Positions 6,434 through 23,724 of a stretch of DNA of 24,100 bases are shown here, in pieces (within the stretch, counting starts at the first letter, position 1; the number at the start of each line of letters is the position of its first letter). This DNA comes from a virus. Both the position numbers and the translations under genes were made by a program. The stretch covers positions 1-24,100 of the IMG/VR virus record IMGVR_UViG_3300047481_001082; one strand, written 5' to 3'. Below the pieces are notes generated by a model, which was not told the origin of the DNA, did no database searches, and was given only the letters and a program-made list of their open reading frames with translations.

Positions 6434-7612
6434 TTAGTGGATCAAGAGATATGTTCCCAGAACATCTTTTCGGCTCGCAGAGTCATCTCCGTCTCTAGGG
6501 CGGACGATAACATTATATTTACCAATTTCATCGGATTCCGGAGTATTTCTCAACTCATCATACGTCAATATAGAATCTTTGGCCACGTTAAACTTCTTCG
6601 ACATTCTATCCTTCAATGTTTCCAAATCCGCGTCGGATTTAAACTTCACCCTACCTTTTTCATCCTTCACATACTTTACACGTCCCTTAGCTCCCGGCTC
6701 GAATTGAAGCAAATCCAAAAAATCTTCTTTCGGAACCACGGTGGAATTCTTAGTCTTTGTAAAATCAATACGTTTTTCTTCCTCCTTCTTAGCACCCATA
6801 GAGAAATTTATCAAGAAATTTGCAGGTTTGTCACCCTGTGCCACGGATGCCATTTTAGTGTAGGCGTAGAAATTCACCTTTGGAAACTTCCTAGCAATAG
6901 AATATGCAAGAGCCAGATAATCGGGTGAGAAGAAATCTCCCGCATCGTGCCAACGAATTACGTTCTGTATATCTTTTTTATCAAAAGTGCTTGCCATCTT
7001 CGTTATTTCTGATTCCAACATCTTGGCAAACCCGGCCGGATCATTCAAAAGGAAGTTGAGAACTTTTGTTTGTGACAGAGAAGCGTCTTTGAACTGAATG
7101 TATCCACCCTTCCTTGCATAACAATAAACCTTACACGCACCTGCTCCTGGACACGTATCCACGACGACGAACTTTCCGGTCTTTTCATCTACTGCTAATC
7201 CCTTTAACGCTGGCAGACCTATGTTGTAAAATTGAACAAATCCCTTGCCGCCGGAGTGAGCCAATTTTTCATTCTGTTTGAGTAACGTTTTTGGTCTTGT
7301 CATCACCGCTTTTTTCAACGCTTCAAGGTCATACTTCTTGTCATCTTGATTCCGTATTTCTATGTTACTCGCGTGAATATAAGGCATATCAAACCTGTCC
7401 TTCGCGGTCTTCTCGCCGGTCGCAGTCTTAGCCATATATTGTTGCATTTCATCATCCGTCACATCTCTAGTGGTCGCACCCAAGAAATCAGCTTCGTTTA
7501 GATTATTTCTAACGAAATCTTCGATAGGAATCACTTTCATCTCCAATAAAGATTCAGTTTTAATCTCAGTCAAACATTCAGATACAAGTTTTTTAAAGGC
7601 AGAAATTTTCAT
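6434..7612 (-). CDS. GP88-like cysteine-motif protein with possible capsid-targeting leader
   Basis: This 392-residue protein has hallmarks I associate with the phage GP88 family (Pfam 'Gene product 88'): N-I-G-L-P-A near residue 130; a cysteine cluster CPGAGACKVYCYARKG with C154, C160 and C164; then VIRWHDAGDFFSPDY (218-232) and FYAYTK (248-253). The biochemical role of the family is not known to me; the clustered cysteines and His-Asp motif could bind a metal or iron-sulfur centre. The N-terminus, MKISAFKKLVSECLTE, is an amphipathic leader ending in L-T-E, with a second L-L-E at residues 22-24. Both fit gp21-type protease sites. The start lies one base after the stop of the 71-residue gene, which has a similar leader. 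The presence of leaders suggests the two may be packaged together; that is inference. Confidence 0.7.
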   Translation of the reverse strand: MKISAFKKLVSECLTEIKTESLLEMKVIPIEDFVRNNLNEADFLGATTRDVTDDEMQQYMAKTATGEKTAKDRFDMPYIHASNIEIRNQDDKKYDLEALKKAVMTRPKTLLKQNEKLAHSGGKGFVQFYNIGLPALKGLAVDEKTGKFVVVDTCPGAGACKVYCYARKGGYIQFKDASLSQTKVLNFLLNDPAGFAKMLESEITKMASTFDKKDIQNVIRWHDAGDFFSPDYLALAYSIARKFPKVNFYAYTKMASVAQGDKPANFLINFSMGAKKEEEKRIDFTKTKNSTVVPKEDFLDLLQFEPGAKGRVKYVKDEKGRVKFKSDADLETLKDRMSKKFNVAKDSILTYDELRNTPESDEIGKYNVIVRPRDGDDSASRKDVLGTYLLIH

Positions 7613-7613
7613 A

Positions 7614-7829
7614 TTATTTTACAGTAACAAAAACAACCCCATTCACAGATTTCAACTCCACGTTTATAATATCACGTCTCAGGTTAGTAAGAAAAACTGA
7701 TTGACCTTCGACGGTTTTTGTTTCATGTGAATTCGGTGCAACCTGAAACTCAACCGAGGAACTATTGGGCTGTCCCTCGCGGCCGGAATCGGAATGCTCC
7801 TCAGATAATAAGTCTTTAAGTTTAATCAT
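7614..7829 (-). CDS. Small protein with LLSE leader (71 aa)
   Basis: The 71-residue product begins MIKLKDLLSEEHSDSG, very like the start of the 142-residue protein at 14085-14513 (MIKLKHIVEG). After a polar Ser/Glu-rich stretch, the C-terminal half looks like a small beta-sheet (SVFLTNLRRDIINVELKSVN). It is the first minus-strand gene after the plus-strand island and is followed one base later by the GP88-like gene. A TATTTAT box lies 7 nt upstream of the ATG. Function unknown; the L-S-E at residues 8-10 fits a prohead-protease site. Confidence 0.65.
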   Translation of the reverse strand: MIKLKDLLSEEHSDSGREGQPNSSSVEFQVAPNSHETKTVEGQSVFLTNLRRDIINVELKSVNGVVFVTVK

Positions 7830-7836
7830 GGTGTCA

Positions 7837-7843
7837 ATAAATA
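7837..7843 (-). promoter_or_regulatory. TATTTAT box 7 nt before 71-aa gene
   Basis: The coding strand reads TATTTAT, TGACACC, ATG. There is no Shine-Dalgarno sequence between box and start. The box lies in the divergent gap between minus-strand and plus-strand units. Confidence 0.4.
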
Positions 7844-7858
7844 TCGTTGGACATTATA

Positions 7859-7874
7859 AAATGTTGAAACATTT
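7859..7874. promoter_or_regulatory. Operator-like dyad in divergent promoter region
   Basis: AAATGTT and AACATTT form perfect 7-bp arms around a 2-base centre, between the divergent starts at 7829 and 7898. The TATAAA at 7855-7860 overlaps its left arm and could be the -10 region for the plus-strand island. A dyad at this place could bind a dimeric repressor. No promoter has been verified. Confidence 0.4.
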
Positions 7875-7897
7875 CAATAATCGACTAAGATACATAT

Positions 7898-8371
7898 ATG
7901 TTCACAGAACTAAAAACCGACCTTTTGACAGCTGAAGTGGATGCCATTGCACATTGTGCCAACTGTTTTTGCATAATGGGATCTGGTATAGCTAGGCAAA
8001 TAAAGGAAAAACTTCCCGAAGCTTTTTTAGCCGACACCAAAACACAGCCTGGCGATAGAGATAAACTCGGTAAGTTTTCGTGTGGTGAAATCACCCAACC
8101 GAAGATTAAAACTACAGTAAAGTTCGTATATAACCTATACGGGCAATTTTATTACGGTAGGGATTCCCGTAAATTGAACTACGAATCCATCTATACCGCA
8201 CTTGAGGGCATGAGACATGATTGTGTTTCGCATCCGATAACAAATATAGGGTTCCCAAAAAACATGGGATGTATGTTGGCGGGTGGTTCGTGGCCAATAG
8301 TGGAATCCATGATTCACAGTGTATTTGACGAATCCCCATTCCACATCTACATCTGTGAATACACTGTATAA
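7898..8371 (+). CDS. Macro-domain protein (ADP-ribose binding or hydrolase type)
   Basis: This 157-residue protein is essentially one macro domain. Visible motifs are the ADP-ribose-binding region AHCANCFCIMGSGIARQIK (residues 18-36, with N22 and the G-S-G turn at 28-30), NLYGQFYYG (79-87), and the distal loop GFPKNMGCMLAGGSW (118-132), equivalent to the G-x-G-L-A-G-G-x-W loop of Poa1p/TARG1-type domains. Such domains bind or hydrolyse ADP-ribose, ADP-ribose-1''-phosphate or ADP-ribosylated targets. The substrate here cannot be told from sequence. It is the first gene of a plus-strand block, with the next gene starting two bases after its stop. In a phage it could salvage by-products of tRNA repair or oppose ADP-ribosylation-based defence; both are inferences. 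Confidence 0.85.
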   Translation: MFTELKTDLLTAEVDAIAHCANCFCIMGSGIARQIKEKLPEAFLADTKTQPGDRDKLGKFSCGEITQPKIKTTVKFVYNLYGQFYYGRDSRKLNYESIYTALEGMRHDCVSHPITNIGFPKNMGCMLAGGSWPIVESMIHSVFDESPFHIYICEYTV

Positions 8372-8373
8372 TT

Positions 8374-9366
8374 ATGCCTAAGATTCTGTCAACACGGTCT
8401 GTTTATTATAACGATTGCAATTTGATTGCCCAACCGGTTCACTATTCTCTCAAAAGTCGAGGAGATGTTCCAATAGAACTTGACAGAATTTTTGTATCAC
8501 CGATGTCTGCGATAGTAGGAAATACATTCACAGAGGAGGCCACGGATTTAGGTTTAAATGTCGGAATACATAGATTCTGTGACATCGGCAAACAAATAGA
8601 AATGGTAAAGTCTTCTCCACATAATTACAACAATGCATATGTGAGTATAGGATTGAATGACTGGGACAGGGTATCCCTTTTGAGGGATTACACATCCAAT
8701 TGGATAATAGATTGCGCCAATGGTTATTTATTCAATCAGATAATACCGACTATAAATCGGTTGAAATTCGAAGCAAGTATCAAAAATTTAGTGATAGGAA
8801 ACATACACTCCAAAGAGGGGATAGAGATTTACAAGGAGTTATCCGAGGAAAACTTCCTGGTTTATTTCAGAGTGGGGATAGCATGTGGATCAGCCTGTTC
8901 GACCTCTGACGCAACAGGAATAAACCGTGGACAGATAACCGAACTTATTGAATGCCGTGAATATATTGACAGTGAAGAGTTTTCTAATTTTTTCATAATA
9001 GCCGATGGTGGAATTAAAAATGGAAATTACGCGTCAAAAGCATTTGGTGCTGGAGCGGATTGTATAATGTTAGGTGGATTCTTTTCGAGAGCAAAAGAGG
9101 CGGAAACACACGTCATAAAAGACGGAACATATTGGGGCGGTGCTAGTAAAAAACAACAAGAATTGTTCGGTGGCGTAAAACGACATAGTGAAGGAAAGGT
9201 CTATCAGGTTGATGGGGAACTACTTCCGTTAAAAGAACTTGTGGATGAATTATGGGGAGGCATAAGCAGTTGTGTAAGTTACAGTGGATATTCCACATTG
9301 AATGATTTTATAGGACACGGTGTTTTTGAGATAAAAGAAAACAGTTTGCCCCCACGGGGAAGATGA
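8374..9366 (+). CDS. GMP reductase / IMP dehydrogenase-like protein
   Basis: Members of this TIM-barrel family interconvert purine nucleotides using NAD(P)H. The 330-residue protein aligns by eye along most of bacterial GMP reductase: LKSRGDVPIEL (26-36), DCANGY (113-118), VIGNIHS (140-146), the active-site loop VGIACGSACSTSDATG (167-182, Cys175 and Thr177), ADGGIKNG (210-217), FGAGADCIMLGG (224-235), and a C-terminal LWGGISSCVSYSG (293-305). No CBS domains are present, which favours GMP reductase over IMP dehydrogenase. However, where GMP reductase has an S-S-E segment with the catalytic Glu, this protein reads GGASKKQQ (255-262). The activity is therefore uncertain. The ATG lies two bases after the macro-domain stop, without its own ribosome binding site, so translation is probably coupled. 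Confidence 0.85.
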   Translation: MPKILSTRSVYYNDCNLIAQPVHYSLKSRGDVPIELDRIFVSPMSAIVGNTFTEEATDLGLNVGIHRFCDIGKQIEMVKSSPHNYNNAYVSIGLNDWDRVSLLRDYTSNWIIDCANGYLFNQIIPTINRLKFEASIKNLVIGNIHSKEGIEIYKELSEENFLVYFRVGIACGSACSTSDATGINRGQITELIECREYIDSEEFSNFFIIADGGIKNGNYASKAFGAGADCIMLGGFFSRAKEAETHVIKDGTYWGGASKKQQELFGGVKRHSEGKVYQVDGELLPLKELVDELWGGISSCVSYSGYSTLNDFIGHGVFEIKENSLPPRGR

Positions 9367-9376
9367 AAGGAAAATT

Positions 9377-9784
9377 ATGGGATGGATGGGATATGGAATA
9401 TACGATGGAGACGAAACACAAACTCGTCATTATGACTTCATTAAATGGAGCAAATGTGGAAAAGAAGACGAAGTTTATGACGATTGGTTTAGATATAGAA
9501 AGACTGTAATTCCTAAAGAGAGAATCCCTATATTAGAAAAAAACTTGGAACTGGTCATTGAAAAGATGCCCAACGTCAAGTTTTGGAATGAGGACAAAGC
9601 AATCGCGTGGCAGATGCTTTTGGCGTTGTTATTAGACAACAAGATTAAACCTCCAGTGATTGTAAAAAAGAATGGAATTCTTGGAACGGAGTTCTTGATG
9701 GAGGAACACGCTTCAGATTTTAATGAACCCCATGTAAGACGAAAGGTATTGAGAAACTTCATCAAACGGACAAAATCCTTATGA
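9377..9784 (+). CDS. Hypothetical protein, MGxMGYGIYDGD start (135 aa)
   Basis: This 135-residue protein has a good ribosome binding site (AAGGA six bases before the ATG), ten bases after the GMP reductase-like gene. The N-terminus MGWMGYGIYDGDETQTRHYD resembles the start of small bacterial proteins of the DUF4259 kind (G-x-x-G-x-G-I-[FY]-D-x-D), but the match is only in this short piece. The rest is helical and charged, with a short hydrophobic helix (AWQMLLALLLDN, residues 77-88) and a basic C-terminus. No catalytic motif is recognised. Function unknown; a cytoplasmic protein acting with its neighbours is likely. Confidence 0.7.
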   Translation: MGWMGYGIYDGDETQTRHYDFIKWSKCGKEDEVYDDWFRYRKTVIPKERIPILEKNLELVIEKMPNVKFWNEDKAIAWQMLLALLLDNKIKPPVIVKKNGILGTEFLMEEHASDFNEPHVRRKVLRNFIKRTKSL

Positions 9785-9837
9785 AAGATAAGAAAATCTG
9801 TCTACCTCCCGTTATGTTTTCAATCGATAATGAATAG
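9781..9837 (+). CDS. Possible 18-aa mini-ORF
   Basis: An ATG overlapping the previous stop (ATGA) opens a frame of 18 codons, MKDKKICLPPVMFSIDNE, ending in TAG. The overlap is typical of coupled phage genes, but the product is very short and without recognisable features. It may be a chance frame or the remnant of a longer gene in the 102-base gap before the DUF4326 gene. Confidence 0.2.
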   Translation: MKDKKICLPPVMFSIDNE

Positions 9838-9886
9838 ACCAGAAAACACGGAAAGTAGAAACAAATAGTTTGGATAGAAATTAAAG

Positions 9887-10162
9887 ATGAAAACTTACAT
9901 AGTAAACAAGTATCATAAAGTTCAATACGACGTCTATATCGGCCGTGGATCAGATTTCGGAAACCCTTACGTAATCGGTGTGGATGGTGATAGAGACGAG
10001 GTAATCAAAAAATATAGGGAATATTTCTATAAAAGAATTGATGAAGATCCATCATTCAAACTTAGAGTGGAAGAGTTGAGAGGAAAGACCTTAGCGTGTT
10101 TTTGTAAACCCAAATCTTGTCACGGCGACGTCATTATTGACTATCTATCCGATGGGTGTTAA
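9887..10162 (+). CDS. DUF4326 family protein
   Basis: This 91-residue protein matches the DUF4326 pattern throughout: VYIGRGSDFGNPYVIG (residues 16-31), a central helix DEVIKKYREYF, ELRGKTLACFCKPKSCHGDV (63-82) with C71, C73, C78 and H79, which could bind a metal. The family is common in phages and bacteria; its function is unknown to me. It is the last gene of the plus-strand block and ends 17 bases before the convergent minus-strand gene. No clear terminator hairpin is visible in that gap. Confidence 0.85.
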   Translation: MKTYIVNKYHKVQYDVYIGRGSDFGNPYVIGVDGDRDEVIKKYREYFYKRIDEDPSFKLRVEELRGKTLACFCKPKSCHGDVIIDYLSDGC

Positions 10163-10179
10163 TGGATACATTCTATCAT

Positions 10180-10752
10180 TCACGGAATTCTATCAAAGTC
10201 TAGTTTGTGTTTTTCACAAAGTTTTTTGGCCATTCTATAGGCTGAGAATGCCTCAGATTCGTTTGGACTGTTTGCAAGAGATTTCAATTTTTTAATCTTA
10301 TCAAACATCTCTACATCCGCGTCTCCATAAATATAATTTCCTACATTTGGTTGAGAAGGACATTCAAATTTATCTAACTTATTCTCGACGGGCCCATCAC
10401 TTATCTGTTTATTGTAGTGCTCTAACAATTCTTTTGAATCTTTTCCGAGGTCTTTCTCCTCACGTAAAACGGTTATATCTCCACCAAATTCATCTCTTAA
10501 TGTGAAAAACAGAAAATTAAGAACAGGAGTTTGTTCGGATGGAATGAAACTGGGGCCAAAATCTATTTCACTTGGTTTTAATCCTTTAGAAATCCCCTCC
10601 GTTAAAAGAAGTTGTCTCTTTTGCGTTCCCTCTTTTATTTCACCTGAGTAATTGGTGTTATACTCCTGAGCACGGGACCTCAAATTCAGAGCATCCTTTA
10701 AGACTTGTTTCGACTTCTCACGAACGGTATCCGATAGTATAAATGTAGACAT
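10180..10752 (-). CDS. Protein with C-terminal DUF2786-like domain
   Basis: The 190-residue product ends in MFDKIKKLKSLANSPNESEA followed by FSAYRMAKKLCEKHKLDF (about residues 149-187). This fits the helical DUF2786 pattern (K-I-x-K-L-x-x-L-A-x-S-x-N-x-x-E-A-x-x-A). The N-terminal 100 residues are charged and helical and contain LLLTEGISKG near residue 50, a sequence that also fits a gp21-type site but is internal. In bacteria the DUF2786 domain occurs in proteins of unknown function. The gene lies 36 bases downstream of the 102-residue gene and converges on the plus-strand island. Confidence 0.65.
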   Translation of the reverse strand: MSTFILSDTVREKSKQVLKDALNLRSRAQEYNTNYSGEIKEGTQKRQLLLTEGISKGLKPSEIDFGPSFIPSEQTPVLNFLFFTLRDEFGGDITVLREEKDLGKDSKELLEHYNKQISDGPVENKLDKFECPSQPNVGNYIYGDADVEMFDKIKKLKSLANSPNESEAFSAYRMAKKLCEKHKLDFDRIP

Positions 10753-10788
10753 AACCTATCAATAGATATGTCAATTACGTTTATAAAA

Positions 10789-11097
10789 TTATTTTTCTTT
10801 CAACATTCTCACAATCTGATTCACCACAGACTCCTTAGCATCCGTGGTCAAGGTTATGAGATTGTATTGTTTATCCGGATGTTCCGGCGAAGTCATCCGT
10901 TCCACTGTCACTTTTAATGGGATATGCGTTCCATTTATTACGGTCAGCCATCCAGAAAAATCTGGGTGTGAAAAGAATCTCGCTGACACGTCTTCTCCAT
11001 GAACTGGCGTCAAGTTCTTAACCTCGGAATGTCGGTCTATTGTATTTGACTCTAAAATACATTCTTTTATAAGAGCTTTAAGTTCATCACGATTCAT
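10789..11097 (-). CDS. Small protein with LIKECILE leader (102 aa)
   Basis: I chose the ATG at 11097. The open frame extends further upstream to 11145, but that extension lies in the capsid-gene terminator. From 11097 the protein begins MNRDELKALIKECILESNTI, an amphipathic helix ending in I-L-E followed by Ser, like the leaders of other proteins in this module. The remainder (about 80 residues) looks like a small alpha/beta domain (GWLTVINGTHIPLKVTVERM, then a helix VVNQIVRMLKE). A TATTTAT box lies 4 nt before the start. Function unknown; a minor packaged protein is possible. Confidence 0.65.
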   Translation of the reverse strand: MNRDELKALIKECILESNTIDRHSEVKNLTPVHGEDVSARFFSHPDFSGWLTVINGTHIPLKVTVERMTSPEHPDKQYNLITLTTDAKESVVNQIVRMLKEK

Positions 11098-11101
11098 ATC
11101 A

Positions 11102-11108
11102 ATAAATA
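11102..11108 (-). promoter_or_regulatory. TATTTAT box 4 nt before 102-aa gene
   Basis: The coding strand reads TATTTAT, TGAT, ATG. It sits between the capsid terminator and the 102-residue gene, a place where a new transcript must start if termination is efficient. Confidence 0.35.
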
Positions 11109-11120
11109 TACATGGAAATG

Positions 11121-11152
11121 AAAAACCCGGTGGAATTTCTTCCACCGGGTTT
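11121..11152 (-). terminator. Intrinsic terminator after the major capsid gene
   Basis: A perfect 13-bp stem (11123-11135 with 11140-11152; AAACCCGGTGGAA and its complement) encloses a 4-base loop. On the minus strand the stem ends in a run of five T. It begins 21 bases after the capsid stop. The plus-strand side has only a short T run, so the main direction is minus. Confidence 0.9.
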
Positions 11153-11172
11153 CTCTAACTAATCCTTACAGA

Positions 11173-12825
11173 TTAGACGTAGTTAAGATCCGCGATAAGG
11201 ATCTTGCCGTAGAACTCAGGACGGACGACCTTCTTGGCATAACGGGTCATTACTCCACGACGAGGCGTGAAGTTAATCGGGTCATACACCAAAGGTGTCT
11301 GAACGAGCGGAACATATGGGCTGTAAACAGCACCAGACTCAAGGAAGTTGGAACCACGGAATCCGATAAGGATCTGGTTCTCAACCATGTATGGGTTCTT
11401 GTAAACCTGGAAGCGACTTGCGAAGCTACCAACCTTACTTACACCCATCGCGAACTTGGCACTGTCACCATCGGTTCCGACGACGAATCCAGGGATCGAC
11501 TCAAGGATAGTGGCAACATCAGGACTTACGACCATGAAGTTAGCACCACCACGGAGGGTCAACTGGTGAATCTTGTTGCTGGCACGTTGAATCTTGTTAC
11601 CAAGAGTCTGGAACCAGGTCGACTTGACATACGCTGTGCGGTTAGCAGCAGAGTCTTCAATACGAGTGAACACGGCGTTACCGCTTCCATCGAGGGTCTT
11701 GGTGAACTCGGTTCCGATCTTGGCACTCCAAGCTTCGGTCGTCTCACCAGGAGCTGCTGTGAGTAGCATGTCCAAGATTTCGAGGTCGATTTCCATCGAG
11801 ACATACTCGCTCAACAGAGCGGTCAATTCTGCCTCAGCATCAATGCTGTGGTAGGCGTTCAAGTCTTGAGCAAGTTCTGGGGTCCAGACTGCCTTCAACT
11901 TACGTGTCTTAGCGACGATTGGCTCACTCTTGAGTTCGAGGTTGACCTCAGGAATACCAATCGTGGAAAGACTGTTTCCACCAGTGGTGTCTTCAAAGTC
12001 ACCACGAGTTGCATCGGTCGGCTGCTTGCTACCAGAAACAAACGTTCCGTTGGCCACATCAGTCACAGCCGAAGCAGTGACAACAGCGGTCAAGTAGTAG
12101 TTAGGGGCAGCAGCGGTTCCTGCGTTATAGACCTTGGTGAACCTTGAGAGAACAGCAGAGTCAACAGAGGCTGACTGGAATGTGAAGCTGCGAACAGCGT
12201 TCAAGTCCCAATTTCCTGCATTGGTGGAGATGTTCCAAGTGATCGTCTTATACTTCGCGGCAGCAACGCTGGCGGAGTAGTCGGCGTCATAGTTCACATC
12301 GGCCCAGACTGATGCACCTGCAGCAGAACCGGTCGTTACCGTGATCGATGAAGCGGATGGGTTAACCGTATAGGCAAACTCACCAGCACCATAAAGACCG
12401 TTGACGGCAGAATCCGTCGAACCGAGCTTCTTCAAAGTTCCACCGAAGAGAGACTCTCCAGAGGTCTTACCACCACGGGTGTTACCATACTTGAAATCCA
12501 AGTAGAAGATAAGTCCGCTAGGAAGATTCATCGGCTGAACGCTGACGAATTCCTTGGCTGCGATTTCAGCAAACACACGACGGACGAGTGGGAGAGCAAC
12601 GCCTGCCCACTGTTCGCTGTTGGTGCTTGTTCCGGTGGAGGTTGCCTCGGAAATAAGCTGTTGAGCCTGATTTTCGAGAAGCACAGACATATTTGCTTTG
12701 TCGGTGCCCTGCAATCCTTCAAGCAAGCCGGTCTTTTCCCACTTGCCCTGGAGTTGACGAGTCTCTTCAAGAAGACGAGACATCGGATTTGAGTTGTTTG
12801 TCAATAATGACTTTACATTGTCCAT
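11173..12825 (-). CDS. 23: Major capsid protein (gp23 type)
   Basis: This 550-residue protein matches gp23: a helical N-terminal delta region with several [L/I]-x-E sites (LLE at 34-36, LISE at 57-60), followed by WAGVALPLVRRVFAEIAAKE and VQPMNLPSGLIFYLDFKYG. T4 gp23 (521 residues) is cleaved after E65; here E60 in QQLISE, followed by A-T-S-T, is the likely site. Residues about 125-290 are a Ser/Thr/Ala-rich variable segment at the place of the T4 gp23 insertion domain. The C-terminal half keeps the HK97-fold core (KAVWTPELAQDLNAYHSIDA, GGANFMVVSPDVATILE, YAKKVVRPEFYGK). It forms the hexamers of the shell. It is flanked by scaffold gene and terminator. G/C-ending codons look commoner than in neighbours, which fits very high expression. 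Confidence 0.97.
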   Translation of the reverse strand: MDNVKSLLTNNSNPMSRLLEETRQLQGKWEKTGLLEGLQGTDKANMSVLLENQAQQLISEATSTGTSTNSEQWAGVALPLVRRVFAEIAAKEFVSVQPMNLPSGLIFYLDFKYGNTRGGKTSGESLFGGTLKKLGSTDSAVNGLYGAGEFAYTVNPSASSITVTTGSAAGASVWADVNYDADYSASVAAAKYKTITWNISTNAGNWDLNAVRSFTFQSASVDSAVLSRFTKVYNAGTAAAPNYYLTAVVTASAVTDVANGTFVSGSKQPTDATRGDFEDTTGGNSLSTIGIPEVNLELKSEPIVAKTRKLKAVWTPELAQDLNAYHSIDAEAELTALLSEYVSMEIDLEILDMLLTAAPGETTEAWSAKIGTEFTKTLDGSGNAVFTRIEDSAANRTAYVKSTWFQTLGNKIQRASNKIHQLTLRGGANFMVVSPDVATILESIPGFVVGTDGDSAKFAMGVSKVGSFASRFQVYKNPYMVENQILIGFRGSNFLESGAVYSPYVPLVQTPLVYDPINFTPRRGVMTRYAKKVVRPEFYGKILIADLNYV

Positions 12826-12858
12826 ATATTTGTTTGTTTGAATTTACGAGTTTTTAGT

Positions 12859-13944
12859 TTACTTCTTGATACCAGCGAGTTTTTGGAACCTTGAAGCCAT
12901 TTCGTTGACCGGCGCCGTGACGATTTTCTCGACAGGTTTGGTCGTTCCAACAGATTGTGACGCGAAGCCTTCAGTAATCGCCTTTTTGGCCGGAGCCTTG
13001 ACTTTACTGAAATTTAATGCCTCTGATAGATTATTGAAAGCGAGCTTGACTTCACGAACGGACTTAGCCAAGTCGAACGATTCAATAATTTTCATTTTCT
13101 GACCTTGATTCAATGCGTGTGCTTTAAATATCTTGTTTGTGTAAAGCAATTTAGCATTCAATAAATTAACTTCATTCAACTGGTCACGTAAAAACTCGAT
13201 GGTCTTTAGTGCCTCAGCCAAATGTTCCTTGCTCTCATCGACGTCGCATTTCTCTTCACCATTGTCGTCGTCCTTAGACTCTACGACAGTAGGAGCCTCT
13301 TCCTTAACGTCATTCAACTCAGCAAGGAGTTCTTCCAAATTGATCTCATCATCTTCACCTGCAACGTCGGCGCCGAGGTCAACGGAGTCACCTTCGGGAG
13401 CCACAGGAGCGTCGCCGACCGGAGCAACCGGAGGAACACCACCAGCAGGGGCACCGGCAACAGGCAACTGACCAGGAGCTACTACCAAAGCAGGAGCTTC
13501 GACTGTCTTGACATCACCAAGTCCCTCAATCGGTGTAACTGCCGGAGCAGCAGGAACCGCTGCAGCGTCAGGTGCCGGAACAACAGGTGCGTCGGGAGCT
13601 GCGGGAGCAGCCATATCACCCTCAGGAGCCACAGGAGCGTCAGCTGAAGGAACTTCTTCACCTTCATCTTCTCCGTCAGCTTCCTTGATGTCCGAATCCA
13701 ACTCTTTCAAAATCTGGTCAATCTCATCAGATGTAACTGTCACATCGTCCGAAGGTTGTGCGTCTGCGGATGGAACTACTTCTCCAGCGTCATCCTCACC
13801 CAACTCTTCTTTAAGTTTAGCACCCAACATAGACTTTAGCTTTGGGGTAAAAGCTTCCTCAAGGAGAGACTTTGCGTTAGCGAGGGCAGTGGCGCGGACG
13901 GCTTTAGCGTCGGCGATTGCCTCTTCAAATAATTGTGATTTCAT
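12859..13944 (-). CDS. 22: Prohead core scaffold protein (gp22 type)
   Basis: The 361-residue protein lies directly upstream of the capsid gene, as gene 22 does in T4. Its N-terminus is helical and charged (MKSQLFEEAIADAKAVRATA). Residues about 75-200 are extremely Ala/Pro/acidic and low in complexity. The C-terminal part from about residue 230 is a coiled-coil helix with the pattern L-N-E-V-N-L-L-N-A-K-L-L-Y-T-N-K typical of gp22 scaffolds, ending KLAGIKK. T4 gp22 is about 269 residues; the difference is the Ala/Pro-rich segment. Several [L/I]-x-E sites (SLLE at 26-29, TPIEG, AITEG) suit degradation by the prohead protease during maturation. It should form the core on which the shell assembles. 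There is no Shine-Dalgarno sequence; the start follows a structured 140-base leader. Confidence 0.88.
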   Translation of the reverse strand: MKSQLFEEAIADAKAVRATALANAKSLLEEAFTPKLKSMLGAKLKEELGEDDAGEVVPSADAQPSDDVTVTSDEIDQILKELDSDIKEADGEDEGEEVPSADAPVAPEGDMAAPAAPDAPVVPAPDAAAVPAAPAVTPIEGLGDVKTVEAPALVVAPGQLPVAGAPAGGVPPVAPVGDAPVAPEGDSVDLGADVAGEDDEINLEELLAELNDVKEEAPTVVESKDDDNGEEKCDVDESKEHLAEALKTIEFLRDQLNEVNLLNAKLLYTNKIFKAHALNQGQKMKIIESFDLAKSVREVKLAFNNLSEALNFSKVKAPAKKAITEGFASQSVGTTKPVEKIVTAPVNEMASRFQKLAGIKK

Positions 13945-14084: not shown

Positions 14085-14513
14085 TTATCCCTTAATATCG
14101 AAATACCGTTCTAACACCCTACCCATGTCTTCATACAAAGCTTCCATCTGTTGTTGACGGATCTTTGCTTCCTTTGCAATCTTATTAAAAGTCTCGTTAT
14201 ACTTCTTTAGTTCTACCATGTTTCTTTTCACAGTAGTCTCTTCAATGAAATCCCCACACTCATTCAACGCATATGCTTCAGCCAACTCCGCAATCTCTTG
14301 GAGATGTGCAGCAACCTCGGCAATATCCTTCTCTCTGTATATAGATTTTCCGTATTCGTTAAACTGAGCCACCATTGAAGACAATTTCTTCTTCTGTTCG
14401 ACGGACAATCTCTTATCCATGCTGCTCGTTTGAAGTTCCTCGTTCTTCATTGGTGCCGGCTGTGCTGGTGTTCCAGAAGTGATTCCCTCTACGATGTGCT
14501 TTAATTTAATCAT
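14085..14513 (-). CDS. Helical protein with HIVE leader (142 aa)
   Basis: This 142-residue protein starts MIKLKHIVEGITSGTPAQPA. The leader ends in I-V-E followed by Gly, the best match here to a T4-type prohead-protease site. From residue about 35 to the end it is almost entirely charged helix, with heptad-like spacing (EVAAHLQEIAELAEAYALNE), consistent with a coiled coil. Location next to the scaffold gene is where T4 encodes small prohead core proteins (gp67, gp68). A core or internal head protein is likely, but no homologue is recognised. A TATTTAT box is 7 nt before the start. Confidence 0.65.
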   Translation of the reverse strand: MIKLKHIVEGITSGTPAQPAPMKNEELQTSSMDKRLSVEQKKKLSSMVAQFNEYGKSIYREKDIAEVAAHLQEIAELAEAYALNECGDFIEETTVKRNMVELKKYNETFNKIAKEAKIRQQQMEALYEDMGRVLERYFDIKG

Positions 14514-14520
14514 ACGTTCA

Positions 14521-14527
14521 ATAAATA
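14521..14527 (-). promoter_or_regulatory. TATTTAT box 7 nt before 142-aa gene
   Basis: The coding strand reads TATTTAT, TGAACGT, ATG, almost identical to the site before the 71-residue gene. No Shine-Dalgarno sequence is present. Confidence 0.4.
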
Positions 14528-14528
14528 G

Positions 14529-14831
14529 TTAGAATTTTTCAAAAATGTCGTGTATCTTGTTCAACATCGAACCGCTTTGTTTAAAGCGTAGGGTCGGGAG
14601 AGTTTTACCGCCAGCCTCGTGTTCGAGATACCAACCATCCTTTTTCTTATAGACAGTTAATTTCAGTTTCTTCTCATCACCGTTCACGGTATCCTCATGT
14701 TCAAATACCATTTTGAACAATCCGTTAGACTCGAATCCAAGGTCATCTAATCCATCCCACTCGTGAATTTCCCATTCATCCGGAGGCAACATATCACTCT
14801 CCATCAAACGTTTCATACCAAACATATTCAT
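14529..14831 (-). CDS. Small protein with RLME leader (100 aa)
   Basis: The start at 14831 overlaps the preceding stop (ATGA) and has AAAGGA about ten bases upstream, one of the clearer ribosome binding sites here. Met3 and Met6 are alternatives. The N-terminus MNMFGMKRLMESDMLPPDE carries L-M-E followed by Ser, fitting the leader pattern. The body (EWEIHEWDGLDDLGFESNGL onward) looks like a small beta-rich domain with alternating strands (KLKLTVYKKKDGWYLEHEAG). Function unknown; possibly an internal head protein. Confidence 0.65.
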   Translation of the reverse strand: MNMFGMKRLMESDMLPPDEWEIHEWDGLDDLGFESNGLFKMVFEHEDTVNGDEKKLKLTVYKKKDGWYLEHEAGGKTLPTLRFKQSGSMLNKIHDIFEKF

Positions 14832-15337
14832 ATCTGATATTCCTTTGTGATGGTGTTTATGAAATTGAAAAGCAAAGAAGCATCGTAAGGTTTGGAACCA
14901 TCATCGAAGGGTCTACTAACCTTTATGATAATCTCATCCCTATCGTCTTCCTCGTCACCAGGAACGTCTTTCAAATCCGTGGAAGTAGATACGTCTGTGG
15001 GTTTCCTCACCGAAAAGAACGCAATATATCTGCCTTGCTTCTTGACCACAGCTAGTTCCTTGTTTCGATTGTTGGTCATCTCCGTTGAACTAAACCGAAG
15101 TTCATTTGGAACCTTTTTATAAGGTTTTGAATCGAGGGTATCTAATATGTCGAGCTCTTCCTGAACAAAATTCTCCCCACGGTTTTCAGGCTTCGATACA
15201 TAATCATCGAAATCATCCTTCGCAGTTATATTCTTTACTATAGGACTCTCCATAGCTTCACGCAGAACCGACCTGATAAGTTCCGATGTTAAATACATCG
15301 ACTCTCTCGCAAGGATGACATCAGATTTAGTAGACAT
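14828..15337 (-). CDS. Hypothetical protein downstream of the protease (169 aa)
   Basis: I placed the start at 15337, where the protease stop and this ATG share one base (TAATG), a typical coupled junction. The alternative ATG at 15298 has GAGAGAG just upstream. It would give MYLTSELIRSVLREAMES, closer to the leader pattern of the other small proteins. The frame is open above 15337, but that extension would overlap the protease. The protein is acidic, with a disordered Asp/Glu-rich stretch (DVPGDEEDDRDE, near residue 130) and a final helix (SLLFNFINTITKEYQ). No family is recognised. It overlaps the next gene by four bases. Function unknown. Confidence 0.65.
   Translation of the reverse strand: MSTKSDVILARESMYLTSELIRSVLREAMESPIVKNITAKDDFDDYVSKPENRGENFVQEELDILDTLDSKPYKKVPNELRFSSTEMTNNRNKELAVVKKQGRYIAFFSVRKPTDVSTSTDLKDVPGDEEDDRDEIIIKVSRPFDDGSKPYDASLLFNFINTITKEYQI
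15299..15312 (-). promoter_or_regulatory. Ribosome binding site for the alternative start at 15298
   Basis: The coding strand reads GCGAGAGAGTCG immediately before the ATG at 15298. It is one of the few purine-rich sites here and bears on which start the 169-residue gene uses. Confidence 0.35.
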
Positions 15338-15978
15338 TAACGTATTTCGTTTAGAATATCGTGGACAACTTCTTCTACCTTTACCCACTTGTTTGAAATC
15401 GGGTCGAGCACAGCTGGTTGTGACTGTAGAGATTCTTGAAGCTGACCGTTAGGAAACATGAAAGCTCCTATTGTAGATGGATTACTAACAAAATCGAACG
15501 CAATCAGTTCAAAGTCATCATCAACTTCGACTGTGTTTTCATTAACCTTCTTGACAGACCCAAGCCCACGACTAGAGATTCCCAAGGTTATCCCACAATT
15601 AAACAGTTCCTTTAAAATGTTTCCGCTCGGCGTCGTCAATATCTCAACCTCACCGTTGAGGTCGGAACCATCCCACCACATTCTGGATATGTTATGAGAG
15701 ACATTCTTCAAATTTACAACGGAACTCTCTGGGTGATCCAACTCTCCCATAGCCCTCTTTTGCTTTACAAAATTCTCCTCATACTTCTTGGCTTCCCTTT
15801 GTAAAATTTCCAATGGATATACACGTCCGTTCTGATTCTTCGCCTCAGCACGCTGCAAAACTCCACTTACGATAAGCTTTCTAGCTGCATCGCCTACGCC
15901 TTCAGTCAAACATTTTGACTTTATGGTGAACTGCATACACTCAAGAAGTAACGGTTTTTTTTGATTTAGGTCATTCAT
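15337..15978 (-). CDS. 21: Prohead maturation protease (gp21 type)
   Basis: T4 gp21 is a serine protease that cleaves capsid, scaffold and internal proteins after [L/I]-x-E inside the prohead. From the ATG at 15978, one base after the upstream stop, the protein has 213 residues against 212 in T4. An open extension to 16158 only overlaps the upstream gene and reads as Arg/Gln/Pro-rich nonsense. Motifs: GVLQRAEAKNQNGRVYP (39-55), the His region RAMGELDHPES (75-85, His82), SHNISRMWWDG (94-104), the Ser region ITLGISSRGLGS (130-141, Ser135/136), and DFELIAFDFVSNPST (155-169). L-T-E followed by Gly near residue 26 could be a self-cleavage site. The protease may act on the leaders found on neighbouring proteins. 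Confidence 0.95.
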   Translation of the reverse strand: MNDLNQKKPLLLECMQFTIKSKCLTEGVGDAARKLIVSGVLQRAEAKNQNGRVYPLEILQREAKKYEENFVKQKRAMGELDHPESSVVNLKNVSHNISRMWWDGSDLNGEVEILTTPSGNILKELFNCGITLGISSRGLGSVKKVNENTVEVDDDFELIAFDFVSNPSTIGAFMFPNGQLQESLQSQPAVLDPISNKWVKVEEVVHDILNEIR

Positions 15979-15979
15979 A

Positions 15980-16636
15980 TTACTTCGAGATGGCTTTATC
16001 CAATTCGGTTGATGGTTGTGGGGCTGCTGGAGCGGCTGGTGCTGGAGCGGCTGGTTTTTGAACTTGCGGAGTTTGAGCGGCCGGCGGAGCTGCTGCGGGT
16101 TTCGCCGGGGCCTTCTCAGCAGAGTCAACGATCTTGATAGGAACGGTGACATCAACAAAATATTGTTTCTTATCGTCGCCGGTTATTATCAACTGATAAT
16201 CGTCCTTACCATACCAGTCCTCGACTGTTACATCCACCACTCTTAAAGCGTATTTCGTCTTAAATTGACCGTATCCCTTACTTCCCTGAACTTCTATGTT
16301 CTTGCCGAGAAGCTTTTGTTTAAGAGCGGATGAAAATTTTTGTGAAATGCCTGCCTCAGCTGCTGACAAGCTTTTTCTGAAAGCGTTAATGTCCTTTGAG
16401 GAATCATATTGGACGTCTTCCAACAAAACTCCATCCTCAATGGAATCACCATCGTTGTTAGATTCGACGTCTGAACAAACCTTATATCCTAATTTTTCGA
16501 TATAAGCGGTGGCTTTATTCTTACCTCCCTTTCGGAAAGCAAATGGTGTAGCATAGCCTGCAACGTTTCCGGTGGAAGTCATCTCTTCGAGAACTTCTTC
16601 AACGAGTTTTTTGATTATACTGCTTATATCTTTCAT
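15980..16636 (-). CDS. Head-module protein with leader and Ala/Pro tail (218 aa)
   Basis: This 218-residue protein begins MKDISSIIKKLVEEVLEEMT, an amphipathic leader similar to others here, then TGNVAGYATPFAFRKGGKNK. Residues about 80-170 look like a folded alpha/beta domain (KSLSAAEAGISQKFSSALKQ, YQLIITGDDKKQYFVDVTV). The last 45 residues are a flexible Ala/Pro/Gln tail (KPAAAPPAAQTPQVQKPAAP). It overlaps the upstream gene by four bases and ends one base before the protease start. Position between portal and protease matches the T4 core-protein genes 67 and 68, but no sequence link is visible. Probably an internal or core component of the prohead. Confidence 0.65.
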   Translation of the reverse strand: MKDISSIIKKLVEEVLEEMTSTGNVAGYATPFAFRKGGKNKATAYIEKLGYKVCSDVESNNDGDSIEDGVLLEDVQYDSSKDINAFRKSLSAAEAGISQKFSSALKQKLLGKNIEVQGSKGYGQFKTKYALRVVDVTVEDWYGKDDYQLIITGDDKKQYFVDVTVPIKIVDSAEKAPAKPAAAPPAAQTPQVQKPAAPAPAAPAAPQPSTELDKAISK

Positions 16637-17505: not shown

Positions 17506-17527
17506 ATTGTCGAGTTTACCTCAATTT

Positions 17528-17534
17528 ATAAATA
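17528..17534 (-). promoter_or_regulatory. TATTTAT box upstream of the 290-aa gene
   Basis: The coding strand reads CATATTTATAAATTGAGG, 22 nt before the ATG. It also contains TATAAATT, one base off the T4 late -10 sequence TATAAATA in the correct orientation. A second TATTTAT lies at 17557-17563. Confidence 0.4.
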
Positions 17535-17572
17535 TGTTTGGATTGAGCAAAATTTAATAAATACTTCACTAT

Positions 17573-19600: not shown

Positions 19601-19616
19601 AGTTTACTGTGTGTTG

Positions 19617-19623
19617 ATAAATA
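19617..19623 (-). promoter_or_regulatory. TATTTAT box upstream of the portal gene
   Basis: The coding strand reads CTATTTATCAACAC, 16 nt before the portal ATG, in the 34-base gap after terminase. Candidate late promoter element. Confidence 0.35.
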
Positions 19624-19634
19624 GTGTGACAGTG

Positions 19635-21257
19635 TTATAATAACCACTTTAGGTCTTCGTTTCTTCTAGCACCTGGGCTAGTTGTGAACGTAGACCCAAC
19701 GGGTGACGGCATAGACCAGTATTCACGGCCTCTGTCAACAGAACGGCGATAGACGGGTTCTCCGCCGCCAGTTTTGTTTATTCCGTCCAACAATGCTTTT
19801 TGATATTCCCCCGAATCGGCCCTTAACCTAAGAGCTGTGTCTCTGACCCACAGCCCAACACCTAACGATGTAACCAAATCGTCATTATAACCGGTCATGG
19901 CTTCCGCCTTACTTCCGTTCCATATGAATACGGAAAGTTCCTCGTAAAGCCGGACGGAATTTGTTTTAACAGATTTGTCTCTGAAATATGTCTCCAGCTT
20001 CGATATTATCAGCGGTCTAGTTCTCGTGGTTGTCGTGAAGCCAGGCACCATATTTTTTTCTTGACGATTGATCTTGTTCGATGTCTGTCTTTCGAGGTCA
20101 ACATACTGGAGGTCAGCGCTGCTATAGAAAGTATTCGGATAACCGATGTCAATTATTTGTTGAAGGGTTGCCCACCCCACGTTGTTGTTTTCTACCACCA
20201 AAATAGCATTGTTGTATTCCGTGGCCACACTTACCAGAAGATTTCCATAACCCTTCGTATCCACAAGACCCTTGAATTCCGCCACTTGTTCCATGCTTTG
20301 CATATCCAGCACATGAAATGCAGATTTGTCACGTCCGTCGCCCCGAGCCACGTCCGCGCACACCAAATAGGAACGAGAATAATCCGCCGGCTTCCATATC
20401 CACAACGATTGGTCAACCCATCTACGTTCAATCGGGTCTTCTATGCCAGCAGACTTTATCCACTTTAAAGTATCGACGTCAAGAACAGTATGCCCCGTGG
20501 TCGTAAAGTCACAATCACACTCCTGTGCTGAACCTTTCACTCCCAACAGTTCCGTCTGTTCATTTCTCCAATCCTGTGTTCTTTCTGGGTGAAGATGCCA
20601 CGGAAGGTTTATCGTGTTAAATTTGTTTTCTTTCTGTTCTGATGCTACCCACGTTTTATGAAAGAAGTTTCCTACACCGTTTGGAGTGCTTAGAATTATG
20701 GCCTTTCCTCCCGTGGAGAGGGTCTGTTGAGCCGACAACCAAATTTCTTCTATGTTGTCGATGAATGCGGCCTCATCAATGATTAGAAGGGATAGAGCAG
20801 AAGAACGGCCCGCATCTCCGGAAGAAGACACCGCTTTTATCTGAGAACCGTTCTTCAAACGAAGGGACAATCTATTATCCTCAATACAAGGTATCTTCAA
20901 CCACGATGGGAGGTTGTTATTAGCAAACCTCACCCTGGTAACAATTTCTTTTGAAGTCTCCTGTTTGATGCTGATACAGAGAATGTTCTTGTCGCTGTGG
21001 AACACCATCAACCAAAGAGAATACGCAGAAGTCAGCGTGGTTATTCCCATCTGACGAGACTTCAATATGATGTTATAGTCAAAGTCTACGAGGTTCTTGA
21101 GCGCGGATTCTTGGAACGGATATAAGTCAAATGGAATTGTTCCCCTCAACGGATGTTGAATCTTGACATACTTTTTCATAAAGTATATCGGGTCGGAAAG
21201 ACACTTCTTGTATTCTTCCTTAATTACATCCCGTATGTTTACTTTAACATCACTCAT
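19635..21257 (-). CDS. 17: Terminase large subunit (gp17 type)
   Basis: This 540-residue protein is the ATP-driven packaging motor and headful nuclease. The ATPase domain has the adenine-binding FDLYPFQ region (43-49), Walker A SRQMGITT (67-74), Walker B LLIIDEAAF (157-165, D161, E162) and the coupling motif STPNG (190-194). The nuclease domain keeps three acidic positions: D302 in CADVARGDGRDKS, E356 in VVENNNVG, and D459/D460 in GYNDDLVTSLGVG. This agrees with T4 gp17 (610 residues), which uses D401, E458 and D542. The gene overlaps the upstream zinc-ribbon gene by eight bases, as expected for a small/large terminase pair. No intein or frameshift is visible. Confidence 0.98.
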   Translation of the reverse strand: MSDVKVNIRDVIKEEYKKCLSDPIYFMKKYVKIQHPLRGTIPFDLYPFQESALKNLVDFDYNIILKSRQMGITTLTSAYSLWLMVFHSDKNILCISIKQETSKEIVTRVRFANNNLPSWLKIPCIEDNRLSLRLKNGSQIKAVSSSGDAGRSSALSLLIIDEAAFIDNIEEIWLSAQQTLSTGGKAIILSTPNGVGNFFHKTWVASEQKENKFNTINLPWHLHPERTQDWRNEQTELLGVKGSAQECDCDFTTTGHTVLDVDTLKWIKSAGIEDPIERRWVDQSLWIWKPADYSRSYLVCADVARGDGRDKSAFHVLDMQSMEQVAEFKGLVDTKGYGNLLVSVATEYNNAILVVENNNVGWATLQQIIDIGYPNTFYSSADLQYVDLERQTSNKINRQEKNMVPGFTTTTRTRPLIISKLETYFRDKSVKTNSVRLYEELSVFIWNGSKAEAMTGYNDDLVTSLGVGLWVRDTALRLRADSGEYQKALLDGINKTGGGEPVYRRSVDRGREYWSMPSPVGSTFTTSPGARRNEDLKWLL

Positions 21258-21858
21258 GTTTGGATGTCAGTTCTTCCAATGATTTAGATATTCTACCCAA
21301 CGCCAAATCACACTCTTTCAAATCATTCTCAGCATCTTCCAAAACCATCGCCTTTGTGGTATCTTTCCAAACATCTTTGCTTCCGTCCTCATTAAAGTAA
21401 ACGATGTCATCGGTAGTCGTTTTCAGATGATGTATGGTTTCCAGCAACTTCGCTCGGAAATCTTCCACCTTTCCACGTTGGAGTTTCAAAACTTTTTCGA
21501 TTTCATAATCACGAAACTTACCGTCCACTTTCAACTTAGATTCAAACTCTGAGTTACACTCGTAACATCTGCCGGTTCTCGGGAAAACTCTGTCATCCAA
21601 ATAATTTCCCCACTTCATGTCACGTTTACACATCGAACACAGCAAGGTGCTCGACTCGGAAGAAACCTTACCCAATTTATTTACACGTTTCTTATAACCA
21701 TTCTTTTTTATCCAACATCTACCAGCAGAGTCTTCCCAAGATTCGCCTTCTTTCCGAGACTCCAAATTAGAATCCCATCCAACCTGAGTAAAAGGCCTGT
21801 CTCCTGCTAGGTATCCCCGAACGATGTCTATGTTACTGCGATTTTTTGCGTGATTCAT
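21250..21858 (-). CDS. Zinc-ribbon protein, candidate terminase small subunit
   Basis: This 202-residue protein lies immediately upstream of the large terminase and overlaps it, the place of gene 16 in T4. The N-terminal half includes DRPFTQVGWDS and WEDSAGRCWIKKNGYKKRVN. A four-cysteine ribbon follows (C74-x2-C77, then C98-x2-C101), and the C-terminal 85 residues are a charged coiled coil. T4 gp16 is 164 residues and forms oligomeric rings through helical segments; I know of no zinc ribbon in it. The gene pair and size support a small-terminase role in recognising DNA, with the ribbon as a possible DNA-binding part. Alternative: a regulatory DNA-binding protein of unrelated type. Confidence 0.6.
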   Translation of the reverse strand: MNHAKNRSNIDIVRGYLAGDRPFTQVGWDSNLESRKEGESWEDSAGRCWIKKNGYKKRVNKLGKVSSESSTLLCSMCKRDMKWGNYLDDRVFPRTGRCYECNSEFESKLKVDGKFRDYEIEKVLKLQRGKVEDFRAKLLETIHHLKTTTDDIVYFNEDGSKDVWKDTTKAMVLEDAENDLKECDLALGRISKSLEELTSKHE

Positions 21859-21867
21859 AAATGTAAC

Positions 21868-23724
21868 TTAAAACTTTACTCCATATTTAATTAGTGTCTC
21901 ACGAGCGTCAGCGACCATATTTTCAAAGTCTTTACTATTTTTAATTCTCTCTACAATAGACTCAAAGTAATCCAAGTCTGACGATTTAGCACCATCACCC
22001 AACAATAAGACTGCAATTTTAGAAGGGTCCTTTGTGATGGTATTCCCAGACTCTCTATCGACGAGTCCATTTTTATAAGACCATTTCATATTTTTAAACT
22101 TTGCGATGCTAGCAAGCAGAACGTGTCGGTGCATACCCTTGTATTCCGAGTTTTCTTTTCCACCCTGTAAACTCCATCGCATCCAATCGGGGTCACCAAA
22201 CATAAAATCAGTCTGAACAAACCCTTTGCCAAAATCACCGTTTATAGGAGTCTTGAAGTGAACGGAGTCGCCTGACTTCTTGACAAATTCTTTCGGATTT
22301 ACGTTTTTAGATACGGCCCAAGCTGCCAAAACCTCCGCCAACTTCTCTTTTGTAGTAGATTTCTCATCCACCGCCAAATCCAAGTCTCCCGACGTTTCTC
22401 TTTTTCCACCGGTTCCGAGCAAGTTGTTTAACAATGGCAGGGACGTAACAGTTTCGAGCCACTTTACCGTTGGGATTACATCGGACCTCGATATTCTAGT
22501 CGTCCCTGAAGAACCGTCTTCAGATTTAAAAACATTCCCGCCTTCAGTGACCACGGATTCAGTTCTAACCACGGCCCGATTTGCTGCCGAGAACCCTGCC
22601 CTTGAAACGAATTTGATATTCCCCTTCGGGTCGGAAACAACATAACCTTCACCTCCAGGAAACTCTCCGATAGAAGCACGGACCACCATAGGATTCTTCT
22701 CTAAATTAGATATTATCGAATCCTTTATGTCCATGATTTCAGAAACGATAAACCATAGAGCTGTAAAACCTCCGATATTTTCCTTTACGTGTTCAAGGAC
22801 ATTTTTCTTTTTCTGTGAACTCAATTTTTCGTTATTTGACACCCAATCTAAGAAATCTTTACCCAAATCCACGAGTCCGGTATCCACTTTGCTATTCAAA
22901 TATGTGTAAAGAATATCAGGAAAATCCGTCATTTTCTTCGCTGACAATTTCGATTTATCTATGAGCGTATTTACCTCGGTGGAATGTTCCTTGATATAGG
23001 ATAGAAGGTTTTTTATCCTTTTCAAATCTACATCGGACTTAGATTCTACTGTCACCGGAGGAATTACACACAACTCGTCTCCTAAGAAAACATTCAAATC
23101 CGCCTCGCTGACTGCGTTGGTAGAACCGTCTATACCGATTCTACCGTGAATCACTACGCCAGCAGAACTCTTCGCAATCTTCTCTCCGAGATGGGACTCT
23201 CTCGCCACCTTATATGTGACTATATTAGGTTTGAATACAAAATCGTCGTTAACGTCAGCCTTGAGTTTTCCCATGTAAAGAAGATCTCCAAAAAAGTATC
23301 CTACGAAATCCTTTGGAACGGATTTTTCAAACACACTAAAAGAGTTCGCCATGTTTCTGGCAAAAGTCTTAAATCCCACACTCTTTTCCGCTGCTGGAGT
23401 CCCTCCACGATTCAAAAGCATAGATTCCAACTCGTTTGGAGATTTACTCTTACCATCATAACCCTTTGCGGAGAATCCGTTTTTATCCGTGAATATGAAC
23501 TCACCCCGTTCATTCCTACCAAACACCACAGCCGGAGAACCATCCCACTTAACCGTCATGTTTCTCTTTTTTCCCTTGGAAGAATCTATCAAAGACTTTA
23601 CGGCTCTCGTGGCTCCTGCTGAACCTTCCCAGAAAATCAAATCTTCTGCGTGCTGAATCCGGACACCTTCCAATAGTGAACGAGATACACACTCGTCTAT
23701 CAAATCTTTCAAAAAATCTTTCAT
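21868..23724 (-). CDS. Two-module nucleotidyltransferase-like protein with capsid-type leader
   Basis: This 618-residue protein starts MKDFLKDLIDECVSRSLLEG, an amphipathic leader with L-L-E followed by Gly. Residues about 25-385 have the order of motifs of covalent nucleotidyltransferases (ATP/NAD ligases, RNA ligases): K59-W-D-G (motif I), GYFFGDLLY (142-150, motif III-like), E359-G-Y-V-V (motif IV) and IKFVSR (370-375, motif V). Residues about 430-515 show a Pol-beta-type nucleotidyltransferase signature: L-L-G-T-G-G-K-R then S-G-D-L-D-L (D447, D449) and a third acidic strand VQTDFMFGD (D506). It resembles proteins I remember as DUF6267 in marine T4-like phages, but this was not checked. 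Inferred: an RNA- or DNA-modifying enzyme that may travel in the capsid. The substrate is unknown. It lies upstream of the terminase genes; a TATATAT box is 4 nt before its start. Confidence 0.65.
   Translation of the reverse strand: MKDFLKDLIDECVSRSLLEGVRIQHAEDLIFWEGSAGATRAVKSLIDSSKGKKRNMTVKWDGSPAVVFGRNERGEFIFTDKNGFSAKGYDGKSKSPNELESMLLNRGGTPAAEKSVGFKTFARNMANSFSVFEKSVPKDFVGYFFGDLLYMGKLKADVNDDFVFKPNIVTYKVARESHLGEKIAKSSAGVVIHGRIGIDGSTNAVSEADLNVFLGDELCVIPPVTVESKSDVDLKRIKNLLSYIKEHSTEVNTLIDKSKLSAKKMTDFPDILYTYLNSKVDTGLVDLGKDFLDWVSNNEKLSSQKKKNVLEHVKENIGGFTALWFIVSEIMDIKDSIISNLEKNPMVVRASIGEFPGGEGYVVSDPKGNIKFVSRAGFSAANRAVVRTESVVTEGGNVFKSEDGSSGTTRISRSDVIPTVKWLETVTSLPLLNNLLGTGGKRETSGDLDLAVDEKSTTKEKLAEVLAAWAVSKNVNPKEFVKKSGDSVHFKTPINGDFGKGFVQTDFMFGDPDWMRWSLQGGKENSEYKGMHRHVLLASIAKFKNMKWSYKNGLVDRESGNTITKDPSKIAVLLLGDGAKSSDLDYFESIVERIKNSKDFENMVADARETLIKYGVKF

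Follow-up and report, generated by a model that had tools for sequence, protein, structure and literature searches.

In bacteriophage T4, propeptides of 10 to 19 residues target proteins into the core of the prohead and are removed by the gp21 protease, and it has been suggested in this literature that T4-like phages use such leaders to load a variety of proteins (PMC9026906; PMC5694885). The DNA analyzed here, a 24.1-kb viral contig (IMG/VR record IMGVR_UViG_3300047481_001082, positions 1 to 24,100; hereafter the window), belongs, judging by its genes, to an uncultured far-T4 phage whose head module includes an intact gp21-type (S77) protease. A short leader ending in [LIV]xE begins at least nine of its proteins, which are otherwise unrelated. 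Very likely the leaders are T4-type capsid-targeting propeptides that serve a much larger range of proteins than in T4.

A sequence-only reading of the window had assigned such leaders to seven head-module proteins, and all seven were located on the minus strand, with ATG starts at 23724, 16636, 14831, 14513, 11097, 7829 and 7612; no significant mutual similarity was found among the proteins that carry them. These leaders are 9 to 19 residues long. The similar leader proposed for the protease was likewise found, reading MNDLNQKKPLLLECMQFTIKSKCLTE/G from the ATG at 15978 (a slash marks the predicted cut, here CLTE/G) and spanning 26 residues. The site proposed in a 169-residue protein, AME, had to be moved: AME becomes AVE, EVD or AMD in relatives, and the conserved site is an LxE three residues earlier (VLRE), giving a leader of 27 residues. 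Gene starts throughout are those of an in-house simple gene caller. The leaders are as follows.

23668 to 23724, minus strand: leader MKDFLKDLIDECVSRSLLE/ of the 618-residue DUF6267 protein (gene 21868-23724), predicted cut after Glu19
16583 to 16636, minus strand: leader MKDISSIIKKLVEEVLEE/ of the 218-residue protein (gene 15980-16636); the homologue in Flavobacterium phage immuto reads MKKSQIVKAVQEVLEE/MSTTG
15901 to 15978, minus strand: leader MNDLNQKKPLLLECMQFTIKSKCLTE/ of the prohead protease
15257 to 15337, minus strand: leader of the 169-residue protein, predicted cut SVLRE/AME; the aligned LxE in relatives reads ILRE, VLKE, VLLE or VLSE
14799 to 14831, minus strand: leader MNMFGMKRLME/ of the 100-residue protein, motif kept in 5/7 orthologue N-termini
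14487 to 14513, minus strand: leader MIKLKHIVE/ of the 142-residue protein, leader kept and linker variable
11050 to 11097, minus strand: leader MNRDELKALIKECILE/ of the 102-residue protein
7800 to 7829, minus strand: leader MIKLKDLLSE/ of the 71-residue protein, of the MIKLKxLLxE class
7565 to 7612, minus strand: leader MKISAFKKLVSECLTE/ of the GP88 protein (gene 6434-7612), with orthologues ending in ECLDE/ and ECIDE/

The position of the motif ahead of the conserved protein body was retained in the nonredundant N-termini of 23/24 protease, 13/16 DUF6267, 9/9 142-residue and 8/8 218-residue homologues, each above shuffled sequences, and portal and neck controls had no conserved [LIV]xE near the start. 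Retention by itself is not proof, because conserved [LIV]xE also occurs near the starts of the terminase, a 290-residue protein and the capsid protein; in the terminase and the 290-residue protein it apparently belongs to conserved domain sequence. The cleanest case was the 142-residue protein, whose 20 aligned orthologues, from both clades, retain a MIKLKxxLxE leader although the 24 residues of linker that follow (10-33) vary or are lacking. Its structure model has a leader helix at 4-13, predicted local distance difference test (pLDDT) values below 50 at 11-33 and a core from 38. Similarly, close relatives of the 618-residue protein conserve [LV]xE/G with variable residues upstream, and its AlphaFold model shows a leader helix at 2-16, pLDDT below 50 at 8-21 and a folded body from approximately 24.

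The same motif marks the gp23-equivalent cleavage site of the capsid protein, where [LIVF]xE follows an ENQ motif in 25/26 homologues. That a gp21-type protease is encoded, as first proposed, was confirmed by a family match and by alignment of the catalytic residues with those of T4 gp21; the His of GELxHP, the Ser of G[IV]SSRG and the Asp of DxVxxPS are common to T4 gp21, P-SSM2 and immuto. In contig L227 (839-2518) the prohead protease appears to hold an intein inserted after GELDHPE. The corresponding features of the window are listed below; the identity of the scaffold rests on position and composition because it gave no family hit.

15337 to 15978, minus strand: gp21-type prohead protease (Peptidase_S77; PF03420, E 8.7e-30)
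12859 to 13944, minus strand: gp22-like scaffold, preceding the capsid gene, with 19 [LIV]xE triplets in 361 residues
11173 to 12825, minus strand: major capsid protein gp23 (PF07068, E 6.9e-74)
12646 to 12825, minus strand: capsid protein propeptide, predicted cut ENQAQQLISE/ATSTG (Glu60), the motif lying at the conserved capsid site

The test against shuffled N-termini that had been suggested gave, in the window, 9/26 N-termini with a loose form of the motif ([LIV]xE at residues 8-20, K or R present, no P or G) versus 2.7±1.3 in shuffles (z 4.7). This loose motif matches internal protein windows at approximately 7.5%, and was found at 10.3% versus 6.1% shuffled in pooled S77-bearing phages and at 8.5% versus 5.8% in phages without S77, the latter excess coming mainly from SPO1. 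Since SPO1 lacks gp21 and is enriched nevertheless, the bare motif is suggestive only, and motif-independent tests were therefore sought. The proposed leader profile worked in part: a position matrix built from the window family recovered the GP88, 102-residue and protease leaders with their own family omitted, none of 603 control proteins scoring as high, and missed the short leaders.

Motif-free clustering of 4,572 N-termini yielded the same leader types, with no member from phages without gp21. The groups with the most unrelated bodies were MIKLKxLLxE (75 families, a figure inflated by the pattern-based sequence fetch), MKxxQLKxLIKEVxxE (14), MKITKxQLKExIREExxE (9) and MENFDLKKFLVEN (4). 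The single shared leader envisaged earlier is replaced by several types, namely MIKLKxLLxE, MKxxQLKxLIKEVxxE, MENFDLKKFLVEN and a T4-like MKSFKxYIAEE. In the MIKLKxLLxE class positions 4 and 7 are hydrophobic; the long class is in another register.

Leaders were also found detached from their bodies. A tblastn search with the 102-residue protein returned an unrelated 159-residue protein of contig L227 that matches residues 1-16 only, with 81% identity. In GP88 of contig L146 the long leader is replaced by a T4-like MKTFTQHINE/, and in actinobacterial and archaeal phages the GP88 homologues have little sequence ahead of the core. In immuto, 12 pairs of N-termini on non-homologous proteins scored at least 28 versus 0.23 in shuffles, some being fibre or signal-peptide pairs; T4, the positive control, returned its known internal proteins. 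Candidate leaders with predicted cuts in immuto and Microcystis phage Mel-JY01 include MKKSQIVKAVQEVLEE/MSTTG, MADNFNLRSFLTE/NKL, MKKLIRIVE/AGE and MIKLKSLLQE/IIS. A cluster of small genes on contig L346 (4078-6458) alternates the leaders MIKLKDLLxE and MKITKTQLKEMIREELxNE, which suggests leader swapping among neighbouring genes. Three proteins of Mel-JY01 (W02; 116583, 117010 and 118384) share a different N-terminus, M[ND]T[EK]EIDFKFN, with no [LIV]xE; the third pairs with each of the other two, and no similarity was detected past residue 20.

The MIKLKxLLxE type was searched for in IMG/VR with a DNA pattern for MIKLK[DENK]LLxE, which gave at least 133 matches in at least 119 stretches. Among the matches listed, 121 of 133 lie at the start of an open reading frame (ORF), and the leader DNAs are distinct in 100 of these 121. 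The carriers comprise at least 105 distinct viral proteins, whose bodies fall into at least 55 unrelated families. A permuted control pattern with the same codons returned 8 stretches from the whole collection, six of them one 17-residue ORF, and cellular genomes (257 Gb) gave 65 matches, 12 of which start an ORF of at least 40 residues. Alignment of 66 carriers showed conservation in MIKLKxLLxE, as expected from the way the carriers were selected, and nothing common downstream. In several carriers known domains start just past the leader (NUDIX at residue 16, ADP-ribosyltransferase at 16, a zeta-toxin-like kinase at 22), and the carriers also include a lysozyme. When Glu was not required in the selection, it was present at position 9 or 10 in 85/110 N-termini of the same shape versus 17% of all proteins, a figure that is not an unbiased rate because the loci are enriched for leader genes. 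Among the matches listed, S77 is encoded on 27/44 leader contigs of at least 20 kb versus 2/20 random contigs (P = 1e-4), and in the 20-40 kb size range on 11/20 versus 1/17.

The 618-residue protein has a second site of this kind.

22543 to 22554, minus strand: second predicted cut VVTE/GGNVF (Glu394), between ligase-like and Pol X-like domains, from homologue alignment

In 23/24 homologues [LIV]xE stands directly ahead of GGN[VI]F, whether inside the protein or where a separate gene begins, and the sole exception begins Met-GGNVF. Relatives with the second half as its own gene start M(x)ILKE/GGNVF or similar, and the structure model has low confidence at 384-396. For the second half the similarity is to DNA polymerase X enzymes, Pol lambda being the best Foldseek match (E 1.4e-3), and a conserved SGDxD motif is present (GKRETSGDLDL in the window); the first half has a KWDG motif and weak matches to ligase domains; a sequence search of DUF6267 against solved structures gave no match. 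The protein is tentatively read as a fusion of a ligase-like domain with a Pol X-like nucleotidyltransferase. Marine relatives encode the two halves in separate genes that lie side by side. Such a pair recalls non-homologous end joining and is possibly carried in the head.

On the minus strand the gene order is the 618-residue DUF6267 protein, a 202-residue protein, terminase, portal, the 290- and 218-residue proteins, the S77 protease, the 169-, 100- and 142-residue proteins, the scaffold-like protein, the gp23 capsid protein and the 102- and 190-residue proteins; four plus-strand genes follow, and then the 71-residue protein, GP88, and neck and tail genes. The plus-strand island (7898-10162) within the minus-strand head module encodes macro domain, IMPDH/GMP-reductase-like and DUF4326 proteins. 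The closest annotated phages by capsid protein identity are Mel-JY01 (52%), immuto (51%) and Rhodothermus phage RM378 (38%). In two close relatives the terminase is split by extra ORFs, and a third has a 1099-residue portal frame (L003 2805-5618, L005 2403-5225, L006 3854-7153); these head genes probably contain inteins or homing insertions.

The proposal of T4-like propeptides has to be weighed against several observations. The 100-residue orthologue of L007 has LLQ and no Glu, the 218-residue orthologues of a marine clade (L010-L025) are without [LIV]xE, and distant DUF6267 proteins are without the Glu or the leader. The window-trained matrix discriminates poorly between genomes. Motif-bearing genes cluster near the protease only modestly (P 0.03 in immuto, 0.05 in G001, 0.09 pooled). 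Neither S77 nor gp23 is present on 16/44 leader contigs, all of which may be fragments; most contigs compared are fragments, and the random-contig control numbered 20. SPO1 (W08), which has no S77 or gp21, carries the motif in 26/188 N-termini versus 12.9 shuffled. No virion proteomics study of a phage from this group was found in the literature. The motif-bearing N-termini of SPO1 are mostly those of short genes. Several distant DUF6267 loci (L191, L185, L200 and others) have leaders MFSFKGF[FI]T[KQ][DEA]K that keep the hydrophobic positions and have lost the Glu; these look as if targeted yet uncut, and in T4 an Asp at position 10 of the leader gives targeting without cutting (PMC9026906).

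Among alternative explanations, the one that survives best is that the leaders serve for docking and cleavage in proteins that assemble the prohead core, as in T4 gp67, gp68 and gp21, and largely do not mark injected cargo. The 218-residue protein, the protease and the 169-, 100- and 142-residue proteins do lie between portal and scaffold, like T4 genes 67, 68 and 21, and many relatives retain the 142-residue and protease families. However, leaders are also found on GP88, on the ligase-like/Pol X-like protein and on accessory proteins that look like enzymes and show turnover (NUDIX, ADP-ribosyltransferase, zeta-toxin-like kinase, lysozyme), and this explanation is considered unlikely. Both core proteins and cargo probably occur among the tagged proteins; the protease, and probably its conserved 142- and 218-residue neighbours, may be prohead core components and not cargo. 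The packaging tag first proposed is supported in part: the leaders behave like a swappable tag with a gp21-type motif on many unrelated proteins of gp21-enriched phages, with the reservation that some of them may be core and not cargo. Still less likely, and considered improbable, is that the shared N-terminus addresses proteins elsewhere (membrane, replication site, host factor) or is a start cassette at the DNA level, with an incidental [LIV]xE end. Some matches do lie on contigs where no gp21 was found, but the peptide is kept though most leader DNAs differ, Glu is retained when not selected for, and the same motif marks capsid, protease and internal polyprotein sites. Chance resemblance, in which charged helical N-termini near a Glu, being common, were simply picked out by the reader, draws on the frequency of the loose motif in phages without gp21 and on SPO1, and is highly improbable given the orthologue retention, the unrelated bodies sharing a leader, the contradicting permuted-pattern control, the cellular control and the co-occurrence with S77.

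What the DNA shows directly is the leaders with their conservation and their sharing among proteins, the protease with its catalytic residues, and the sites that match; T4 offers a precedent for how they would work. Each leader, a short amphipathic helix, would dock its protein into the prohead core as this grows on the gp22-like scaffold. Once the shell is complete, the gp21-type protease would cut after [LIV]xE at the end of each leader, and would also cut the capsid protein (LISE/A), its own N-terminus (CLTE/G) and the junction of the 618-residue protein (VVTE/GGNVF). The mature bodies would remain in the head with the DNA, and the cargo proteins would probably enter the host with it. By extension, it is possible, though at slightly less than even confidence, that far-T4 phages run a general delivery code in which a few interchangeable leaders load dozens of enzymes, gp21 releases them and injection lets them act in the first minutes; ADP-ribosyltransferases, kinases, NUDIX proteins and a ligase-like/Pol X-like polyprotein split by gp21 into two enzymes might, just as tentatively, be included.

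Since leaders are found on dozens of different enzymes in related phages, the tag could show from sequence which proteins are loaded into heads and perhaps injected. If so, a mechanism described for a handful of T4 proteins would become a code readable in the first ten to twenty residues, and head-loaded, possibly injected proteins, most of them now hypothetical, could be listed for very many uncultured T4-like phages. Several tagged proteins look like enzymes and could, ahead of the onset of transcription, act on either the host or the incoming DNA. Many natural leaders would also become available for loading proteins into phage heads.

No description of these leaders was found in the papers searched, nor were the leader strings themselves. 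The nearest described system is that of T4 (IPI-IPIII, Alt and gp21; PMC9026906; PMC5694885), in which unrelated proteins likewise begin with a short peptide that ends in [L/I]-x-E and an S77 protease is present; hydrophobic positions 4 and 7, present in the short type here, are reported to be important for T4 targeting. Unlike in T4, the sequences are of the MIKLKxLLxE and longer MKxxQLKxLIKE...E types, the leaders reach 26-27 residues and precede bodies of dozens of families, several enzyme folds among them, and one site lies between two domains of one protein. In phiKZ-like giant phages (the SPN3US gp245 system), inner head propeptides are also removed by a related prohead protease, and identical N-termini occur on diverged paralogues, whereas several of those propeptides exceed 100 residues and the SPN3US motif is AxE (PMC5694885). 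In P1, the N-terminal 30 residues of DarB are enough to send a foreign protein to the capsid, but the Dar proteins yielded no consensus (PMC9024508). Relative to the earlier suggestion for T4-like phages, the additions made here are the breadth of use, the new leader classes and the site at a domain junction.

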